In this document: piece after piece, positions 18,425 to 22,570 of the stretch
Layout of the letters: every line of letters begins with the position of its first letter
How positions within the stretch are numbered: position 1 is the first letter of the stretch
Virus record (IMG/VR): IMGVR_UViG_3300037189_017523
Coordinates: 1-25,098 of that record
Origin: a virus
Strand: one strand, 5' to 3'
DNA: 25,098 nt
Position numbers and translations under genes: made by a program
Notes under the pieces: generated by a model
Seen by the model: only the letters and a program-made list of their open reading frames with translations
Databases searched by the model: none
What the model was told of the DNA's origin: nothing

Positions 18425-20443
18425 TTATTGGTTGTCCTTGACGAGTTTGATCTCGCAAGCATCTGTGGTGCAGTAAGCCTCACCAATAGCGTCTGAAGCC
18501 ATACCAGCATAGACACCCTTAAAGTCAATCGGGAAGAGTTGCATAGCGTAGCCATTATACTCTTCTTCTGTGATTTCCTGGTAAGGCATTTGATCGTAAA
18601 CTTTATTGCCACTAGGCAAGAAAGATACGGTTTTTAGTTGTCCATCGTACATATGCAATACACGACCGACATCTTCTGATTCTTTTTCAGGATCAAAAGA
18701 AACGGTGACTGATACAGAGTTATCTGACCAGTAACGTTGTGCTGTCGCAGCTAGAGCAATCTTTTCGTAAATAGATACATCTTTAGCAGAACGAACAGAG
18801 TTTGATTTAATAGGGAAGTAAACTACAGATGAACCCTTAGTGTATACGCTTTCTTCTACACGATAGTTAGCCATCTTGAAAAGAGGAAGCATAGGGTCGT
18901 TATCTGCAAAGGTAATCAAGCGCATTTGGTAGCGACCTGCAACGTCCCAGTGAACACCGGCAGATTCACCTGCAAGAAGCGATACCGTACCTGATGGCTT
19001 GATTGTAGTCATCTTGATAGACTCACGAATACCTAGCCACTCAGAATACTTTTTGTCATAGTCCATTACTACTTGGTAGCCTTCATCCATCCATTGACGC
19101 AGTACTGGTAATCCTTTGTTATCTGCAAAGTTAGCTACACCAGACATTGATGTGCCAATACGGCGATTACGTTGCATAATAGCGTTAGTCTCTTCCCAGT
19201 GTGTCGGTAGGAGAGTCACTGTTTTAGCGTATAGATACGCAAACTTTAAAGTACGCTTGTAATCTTCTAGATCTGTGTGGCGATTTAGGTAAGTTTCAAC
19301 CAGAGTACACATTTCAAAACTTTCTAGGCTTTGCTCTGCACAAGGGTTGTACCCAGCAATACGCCAGTCTTTGTTGTTTGCTTTGTCTGCCAAACGACCA
19401 TACTTACGTGATGTATCCATCCAAATAACTCCTGGCTCGCCATTTAAGGCGATACCTTCTACAATTGGAGTAAAATCTGTACCAACAGATACTTCTACTG
19501 AGTTATTTGACATCCAACCCCAGTTAGCCATACGCTCAGGGTTTACTTCAGGATTTTTTAGGTTAAGGAAATCTTGGTCATCAATACGCCCAATTAGTAG
19601 CTCTGCTGAACGGCGAACATTTCCAGAAACAACGCACACACCAATCATATTACCGATGTCCGCAATATCTTTACGGGTCAGTAGTTCGTAAGCACGAGTA
19701 TCAAACAATGCACGAATGTGATCGTGTAGTTTAATTAGTGGCTCTGGACCAGATGCGGTTCCTCCAAATGTGGCAATAGAAGCACCGTATGGACGGATCT
19801 CTGAGTAATCAAAGTTTAGTTTAGACTGATCTGGTTTTAGGTAAGAGTTAATTAGTGCAACAGTGCTTTCCTGCCATCCTTCACGAGTATCAGGAATAAC
19901 ATACTCTATTTCTCCTTGAATTGGAGAAAAGATCTCAAAACCCTTATCTGCGCCTTTATCATCAAAACCAACGCCTACACCTAGCATTGACGCTTCCATT
20001 AGAAATGCAAATGGTTTGCCAGGGTTTTGCTTAGTCATTTCGTTAGTGGATACAAAGGCACAGTTTTGTAGTGCAGCCGAGTTACGCTGCTCATTTACTA
20101 GTGGAGTACCCATAACCCATAGTCCACGACCAGGAGGTGTCCACTTTAGATTAAATAGGCGATCAAAGGCTTCTTTTGCACTGGCAGCAGCTTTGGCATC
20201 AGACCAAGGCAAACGGTTCTGTTTAGCGTGGTCTTTTTGAAGAGAGTACATACCATTGATAACGCGTTCACATACATCTACCCAAGTTTCTTTAGTTCCA
20301 TCTTCTTTTTTACGAGAATAGGTACGTAAAAAGGTAATCTCGCCTACTGAGTTGCCTGCAACATCTGTATAGCCAAAAGGGGCTTTCTTGGTTTTATATC
20401 CGGATACAAACTCTTCGGATAATTTAAAGGAAAAAATGGTCAT
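18425..20443 (-). CDS. nrdJ: Adenosylcobalamin-dependent ribonucleoside-triphosphate reductase (class II, monomeric)
   Basis: It converts ribonucleotides to deoxyribonucleotides in the cytoplasm using coenzyme B12, so it works with or without oxygen. ATG 20443 (MTIFSFKLSEEF) has GAGAG upstream; a TTG at 20455 is less likely. The 672 residues show all active-site elements of the Lactobacillus-type enzyme: Cys128 in LQNCAFVS, NPCAEQ with the radical Cys368 and Glu370, and Cys379 eleven residues later. The C-terminal redox pair is Cys658/Cys663 (YCTTDAC). Length is slightly below the family norm of about 740. No NrdB/NrdG is needed. It depends on host or scavenged cobalamin. A palindrome overlaps its promoter. 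Confidence 0.95.
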   Translation of the reverse strand: MTIFSFKLSEEFVSGYKTKKAPFGYTDVAGNSVGEITFLRTYSRKKEDGTKETWVDVCERVINGMYSLQKDHAKQNRLPWSDAKAAASAKEAFDRLFNLKWTPPGRGLWVMGTPLVNEQRNSAALQNCAFVSTNEMTKQNPGKPFAFLMEASMLGVGVGFDDKGADKGFEIFSPIQGEIEYVIPDTREGWQESTVALINSYLKPDQSKLNFDYSEIRPYGASIATFGGTASGPEPLIKLHDHIRALFDTRAYELLTRKDIADIGNMIGVCVVSGNVRRSAELLIGRIDDQDFLNLKNPEVNPERMANWGWMSNNSVEVSVGTDFTPIVEGIALNGEPGVIWMDTSRKYGRLADKANNKDWRIAGYNPCAEQSLESFEMCTLVETYLNRHTDLEDYKRTLKFAYLYAKTVTLLPTHWEETNAIMQRNRRIGTSMSGVANFADNKGLPVLRQWMDEGYQVVMDYDKKYSEWLGIRESIKMTTIKPSGTVSLLAGESAGVHWDVAGRYQMRLITFADNDPMLPLFKMANYRVEESVYTKGSSVVYFPIKSNSVRSAKDVSIYEKIALAATAQRYWSDNSVSVTVSFDPEKESEDVGRVLHMYDGQLKTVSFLPSGNKVYDQMPYQEITEEEYNGYAMQLFPIDFKGVYAGMASDAIGEAYCTTDACEIKLVKDNQ

Positions 20444-20495
20444 AGTGACTCTCAATCATAAATAAGGAGGGTATTTGCCTTTTGGGCAGAATACT

Positions 20496-20524
20496 AGTGT
20501 ACACTACAAAAGTGTGATTGTCTA
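20496..20524 (-). promoter_or_regulatory. nrdJ promoter with AGTGTACACT palindrome
   Basis: On the minus strand, TAGACA (20524-20519) and TACACT (20501-20496) are 17 bases apart. The -10 lies inside the perfect 10-base palindrome AGTGTACACT (20496-20505), a likely operator. A leader of about 45 bases follows. It is too short for a cobalamin riboswitch. Confidence 0.6.
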
Positions 20525-20615
20525 ATCGCGCATAAAACTATTTTTTTGTATGTATTAACTCAAAATAGTGCGGACCATATTTCAGGGTTTAAAATACCCT
20601 GTTATCAGATAACAG

Positions 20616-22112
20616 CTATTCTATAGAATCGCGTATAATTCTATTAGTGTCATCTGCATTTAGGGTGTTAGGCATCTCTCTAAGTGCTTGTGCACGGTCA
20701 CCAAATATGGCTGACAAAACACCTCCACTAGATGAACGTTCAGCAGTAATTCTAACAAACTCTTTGTTCTCGTCAAGTTCTTTCATTGACTTAACTAACT
20801 TCATCAAACGATCTACTTCTTGTGATACATTTGGATCAGCATAACCACCGTTCAATTCCTCTGCAAACCGCATAAATGCTACTCTCTGACCCTGCATCTC
20901 TATGATTGCAGTTAGTAAAGATTTGAGTTGATCTTTGGTTTTTACCTCTACTGGTAGATTAAATGCACAGGTGTTATCTGGTTTAAACGCGGGGCAATTT
21001 GCAGCAACAAAACAGGTGTTGCACTGTCTTAAACTGGTGCTATTTGACCTAACAACTGGCACATCTTTTAGAACATCAATACCGTTTTCTGTCTCTATTA
21101 CAGTTTTGTATTCATAACCAAAAACAGGCATAGAACTGACCTCAGAAGGGTCTCTTTGTACTACTTCAGTACGTTCTTTTTTGAGGTCTTCAGAACCACT
21201 GTTATTAGAACCATACCCACCCATTTGCATCAAACCTGTGTATAGGGTATCATCACTGTTATCAGATAGTAGTGAGTCTTTACCACCCTGTATAACTCTT
21301 AAATCCGGTTTATCTTTGTCCATTATTTTCTCTAACTGTAAATACGACCAAATTGCAACTTTGGTGGCTTCTAGTGTGTCATCTTCTACAAACTTTTTAA
21401 AATCTAATCCAGCTTTTTCTACAACACTCTTGTATCGTATTCTTGCTTGATCTTTCATATTTTTAGGGTATCTAACTAGTTTACTACCATCCCAGACAAT
21501 TGTCTCGCCTCTTCTCATTGGAGTTAGCCAGGATAATGTGCTAGTGGTAGAAAAAGGGATTTGGCGTAAATTGTCTGGTTTGACCGTAGCAAGGGCGTGA
21601 AAAGAAACCTGATAGTTTTGTTGTAACCTTCTTGTAATGGCGGCTAGTGACGTCACAGCCTCAATTTCAGTACCTGGGATGGCTATATTAGAGTACTCTT
21701 TTGCCCAATCCTCTAAAACAAACGTTTTGTAGTTTTCGTGCCACACTACCCATAGTTTAGGATCACCAGCATATACAGCTCTATTTTGGTTTATTGTAGG
21801 CAATCCAAGTATTTGGCTATCAAACTCTGTAAACCCTTCAATACGGGCGTAATTATTGGCAATAAACTCTTCATACTCAGCTGCGTATTCTTCTAGTTCT
21901 TTTCTAGAAAGGTTGGATTTATCTGCCTGAGTTGCACCTGAATCTACCCATATTTTCATATCGGGGAAAAAGTGCTCCCCTATTAAATACGTTTTGTTCT
22001 TTGGCAGTCCACGCTTGCGCAAACCTCAGTAGTTCAACATTACATTTGTTACGCCAGAACGTTCTAATAATGTACGATTTGAGGGTATTTCTACCCCACC
22101 AAAAATAATCAT
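20616..22112 (-). CDS. TGT/DpdA-like barrel protein, interrupted by in-frame TGA at codon 29
   Basis: The natural start is ATG 22112, joined to the HNH stop by TAATG. The frame is open for 28 codons (ending VMLNY), meets TGA at 22028-22026, then continues GLRKRGLPKNK to a TAG, 498 codons in all. If translation restarts, TTG at 22022 would give 468 residues. Numbering from that TTG: VDSGA (26-30), EFDSQIL (66-72), LWVVWHENY (90-98) and FHALATVKPD (141-150) then STLSWLTPMR resemble the order of tRNA-guanine transglycosylase-like barrels, including phage DpdA. The usual nucleophile Asp would fall near Ser/Thr 158-164. A Cys4 cluster (334, 337, 343, 352) and a helical C-terminus follow. Function is uncertain. 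Confidence 0.6.
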
Positions 22113-22570
22113 TAAATAACATCCACGAGACTGCTATGACGCCTTATATTGCACAGAGAGTGTGATGGACGTACATTATCTAGCGTGTTAGGACCATTTT
22201 TAGATATTGGTATAATATGATCTACTTGAAACCCTACCTGCCAATTAGGTAACCCATTTTTCCTTGGAGCATCCATATCAATTGGCTCATTGCATAAGTG
22301 GCAATCAGTTCCATACTTATCTAGTATATCTTGTATGGTGTGGTTATCTGTAACTGCTGCTTTCAGCATTCCATCGCGTTTCCTTGCACGAGCAACTGCG
22401 CGTTCTGGATAAGAACGGTAGTGCTTATCCCTACTAGCTTTAACTGATTCAGGGTTTTTATTCCTAAGTTCAGTTTTGTATGCATTGTAGGCAACACGAC
22501 ATTCATCACAAATTTCTTCTTTTTTCCTGTAGTGTTTTTTGTATCCAGCTGGTGTTCCGCAGTTATCCAT
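22112..22570 (-). CDS. HNH endonuclease
   Basis: A 152-residue protein with AGGAG seven bases before its ATG. The C-terminal half has CHLCNEPID, then FQVDHIIPISKNGPNTLDNVR and SHSLCNIRRH. This is an HNH (beta-beta-alpha metal) nuclease with D-H-x-x-P, N and H residues and a structural zinc from two Cys pairs. The N-terminal part has CGTPAGYKKHYRKKEEICDEC, a second small Cys/His cluster likely to bind DNA. Free-standing HNH nucleases act in phage packaging, homing or recombination. Its stop is the ATG of the interrupted gene downstream. Confidence 0.88.
   Translation of the reverse strand: MDNCGTPAGYKKHYRKKEEICDECRVAYNAYKTELRNKNPESVKASRDKHYRSYPERAVARARKRDGMLKAAVTDNHTIQDILDKYGTDCHLCNEPIDMDAPRKNGLPNWQVGFQVDHIIPISKNGPNTLDNVRPSHSLCNIRRHSSLVDVI

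Follow-up and report, generated by a model that had tools for sequence, protein, structure and literature searches.

The window, the whole stretch of 25,098 nucleotides that was analysed, is a single 25 kb virus record and represents an incomplete phage genome. On its minus strand, at positions 20616–22112, lies a dpdA-like gene of the queuine tRNA-ribosyltransferase-like family phrog_887, whose reading frame comprises 498 codons when an in-frame TGA at codon 29 is counted. The frame begins with an ATG at 22112–22110, sharing bases with the TAA stop of the preceding gene (TAATG), stays open for 28 codons (22029–22112), meets the TGA at 22028–22026 and continues for another 469 codons before ending at a TAG (20618–20616). 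An earlier note had described this overlap, the position of the TGA and these codon counts, all of which match the sequence. Two codons past the TGA, at codon 31, a TTG (22020–22022, minus strand) is a putative restart codon without a well-spaced Shine-Dalgarno motif.

The gene directly upstream (22112–22570, minus strand) encodes an HNH endonuclease and is an insertion between a metallopeptidase-like gene and the dpdA-like gene. Three relative contigs (G002, G003 and G004) lack it and have about 30 bases in its place, and among 80 relative loci it is shared only by L001, the closest relative. Since L001 carries the same insertion together with an intact TGG, the insertion was rejected as the cause of the stop. 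A class II (B12-dependent) ribonucleotide reductase gene (18425–20455, minus strand) adjoins the dpdA-like gene and is found close to it in most relatives.

Family membership and presumed function

The part of the gene following the TGA matches the phrog_887 profile (queuine tRNA-ribosyltransferase) at 3.7e-60, and L001, an intact homolog of 498 codons, matches it at 3.4e-63 over residues 1–490, so that the N-terminus encoded ahead of the TGA belongs to the family as well. Every relative whose sequence reaches far enough shows conservation of the 28 codons preceding the TGA. Because of this conservation, the extent of the profile match in L001 and the fact that no other conserved gene of the window is interrupted, the sequence comparisons identify the frame as a genuine gene and not a chance frame.

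The nearest named phages include the Streptomyces phages GiJojo, in which the gene is annotated as dpdA-like, BRock and Alone3, with 31–32% identity over the part following the TGA. Their genes resemble that of the window over the whole length (about 31–34% identity) and share its N-terminus, but have Phe at the position of the TGA and no stop.

The AlphaFold model of the L001 protein shows a confident barrel over residues 1–260 and a poorly modelled C-terminal half. Among solved structures (PDB) the model matched generic barrels only, while matches in a viral structure library include phage proteins annotated as queuine tRNA-ribosyltransferase-like (TGT-like). Searches of Pfam and NCBIfam gave nothing significant and no match to a TGT model, and a sequence search of the PDB found no relative. 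The name DpdA-like is thus based on profile and annotation, and the activity is putative. Neither QueC nor QueD was found in 11 relative contigs, which fits the class of singleton dpdA genes without a preQ0 pathway that has been described in phages (PMC6884629). Compared with the DpdA and DpdA2 of phage 9g (Hutinet et al. 2019, PMC6884629), the window gene is likewise a full-length member of phrog_887 with a modelled N-terminal barrel, but it differs in having a stop at codon 29, and base exchange on DNA is only presumed for it. The gene product presumably swaps guanines for 7-deazaguanines in phage DNA.

The residue at the TGA

Each of the 80 IMG/VR relatives that were fetched reads TGG at codon 29, among them L001, whose protein is 99% identical to that of the window, and Trp29 is invariant in an alignment of 29 diverse members. 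Together with the Phe of the three distant Streptomyces phages this indicates that the protein runs across the TGA and that the position is aromatic. The proposals in the earlier note that one continuous protein spans the TGA and that the stop plausibly occupies a Trp position are therefore borne out: the relatives are conserved on both sides, the phrog_887 match is full-length, and the homologs do not begin at LRKRGLP, the alternative start that had been considered.

The TGA is rare. A degenerate pattern of the site carrying TGA or TAA had no match in 2.9 million viral contigs, whereas the same pattern carrying TGG had at least 120 matches as a positive control. When a near-exact DNA pattern permitted either base, the sole match was L001, carrying TGG. 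Both scans may leave out the window's own record.

A shortened product was weighed in this context. Terminating ribosomes can reinitiate nearby, and the restart at TTG proposed earlier is possible in that the codon lies in frame two codons on; a restart there, at 22022, or at the ATG at 21959 would also retain the VDSGA motif and a Cys cluster, both encoded downstream. Such a protein would, however, lose 28–30 residues that are conserved across the clade, down to 33% identity, and with which the predicted barrel begins (strand 2–6, helix 13–18 and strand 23–27 of the AlphaFold model). Furthermore, no relative begins at the TTG position and neither candidate has a well-placed ribosome-binding motif, making a working protein from such a restart very unlikely.

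Genetic code and recoding

Among the TGG and TGA codons of the window that stand opposite a Trp of a relative, 79 are TGG and one, codon 29 of the dpdA-like gene, is TGA. TGA is scarce as a stop in the window, ending 2 of 40 called genes, and the relatives use it more: in G004, a relative of 93 kb, it closes 16 of 103 ORFs, and in G001, the contig of L001, 6 of 40. The scarcity in the window is what could be expected if UGA were read as Trp by the phage or its host (code 4), but given the 79 TGG codons against a single TGA, and the normal use of TGA as a stop in relatives such as G004, this changed code was rejected and we regard it as barely credible.

With ARAGORN no tRNA gene turned up in the window, nor did one in G001–G004 with ARAGORN and Rfam; more distant relatives carry a tRNA-Asn (G006) and a tRNA-Gln (G011). 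The UCA-anticodon or suppressor tRNA that the earlier note suggested looking for was thus found neither in the window, an incomplete genome, nor in the relatives of the phage group that were searched, and a suppressor tRNA of the group was rejected as the cause. Stop-codon recoded phages, such as the crAss-like phages in which TAG encodes Gln, and others (PMC9523058), likewise have in-frame stops within conserved genes, but the window differs from them in having one such stop, no detected suppressor tRNA, and relatives in which TGA is a stop. Conserved programmed readthrough and a selenoprotein were also rejected, as the relatives have TGG (80/80), the distant phages have Phe, no stop is shared and no Cys stands in its place.

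Low-level readthrough occurs at any UGA, and it may occur here in a casual manner. The stronger proposal is that UGA is read as Trp often enough to yield a working enzyme, by a near-cognate tRNA-Trp of the host or by a UGA suppressor of the host. In its favour, the TGA is located exactly at a Trp position, the coding sequence beyond it is intact and conserved, few genes of the window end in TGA, and in E. coli UGA can be decoded by Trp-tRNA variants whose anticodon is CCA (PMC13092985). The RNA downstream of the TGA also folds slightly more stably than shuffled sequences (z −1.9), but this fold is weak, and with the stop absent from every relative no recoding signal can be conserved; the structure was rejected as such a signal. 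With all other conserved Trp codons being TGG, a search of the phage group that yielded no suppressor tRNA, and TGA a normal gene end in relatives, the recoding option raised in the earlier note is not supported, and we consider sufficient readthrough improbable. More speculative still, and highly improbable in our judgement, is that the phage lineage keeps its dpdA-like enzyme under inefficient UGA readthrough, for example to limit DNA modification, in a host that inserts Trp at UGA with unusual efficiency.

Nonsense allele or sequence error

The window gene and that of L001 differ in 12 codons: seven changes are synonymous, four are mild replacements and one is the TGA. No second lesion is present, so the stop is either recent or false. 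Per 250 bases, the divergence from L001 is 0.4–2% across the dpdA-like gene (20500–22250) and 2–19% over much of both flanks. This near-identity against divergent flanks points to recombination, judged from the sequences, and such mosaicism is typical of phages. Of the changes derived in the window, 17 of 61 are G-to-A on the gene strand compared with 8 of 50 on the L001 branch, too few changes to claim deamination or hypermutation.

The lone TGA could be an error of sequencing, amplification or assembly, in which case the consensus base would be mistaken and the true codon of the phage would encode Trp. It is a single transition at an invariant codon in a gene with no second lesion, no other contig shares it, and the window is one virus record, whose IMG/VR relatives suggest a metagenomic origin. 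On the other hand, comparison with four relative contigs revealed no other interrupted conserved gene in the window; the remaining flagged interruptions were opposite-strand shadow ORFs, stops lying no more than three residues from an end, or an extension 5′ of a gene start. The contig is therefore not generally error-rich, and poor overall quality was rejected as an explanation. Internal stops were absent from the 80 dpdA copies and from three neighbouring genes (62–74 full-length copies each), and their absence from a total of about 280 gene copies of IMG/VR relatives suggests that such errors are rare. The same counts weigh against a real nonsense allele, since they indicate that real alleles of this kind are rare here too; base rates consequently do not separate the two. 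We consider an error unlikely, though a serious candidate.

We find it probable that the TGA marks a nonsense allele, private to this phage and of recent origin, in an otherwise ordinary dpdA-like gene. The weights given to this allele and to an error are our judgement and not a computation. Of the options listed in the earlier note, a nonsense mutation and an assembly error are the best supported, with TGG in 80/80 relatives and recoding unsupported. That the base present in the record is real in the phage we infer. One substitution, changing TGG to TGA (read as C to T on the plus strand), would then have made a nearly universal Trp codon a stop, and the allele would be recent and private, the remainder of the gene being intact and about 99% identical to the closest relative. 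This lack of decay also counts against a real allele, as it may mean that function was kept until very recently or that the base is an error.

As for the effect on function, we infer that translation of a nonsense allele would end after 28 residues, giving a non-functional product save for traces arising by UGA readthrough or reinitiation. The dpdA-like gene stands alone, and the relatives searched have no preQ0 synthesis pathway. If its product has the presumed role, losing it would deprive the phage DNA of a protective modification, a loss that could be tolerated.

A suspicious lone stop in a phage contig proved largely resolvable by comparison, which made clear what residue belongs at that codon, that the protein is continuous and that there is no recoding. 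Should the base prove real, the window holds a naturally occurring loss-of-function allele of a dpdA-like phage gene of the singleton type, with a presumed function, and such alleles could help to reveal the role of these genes.
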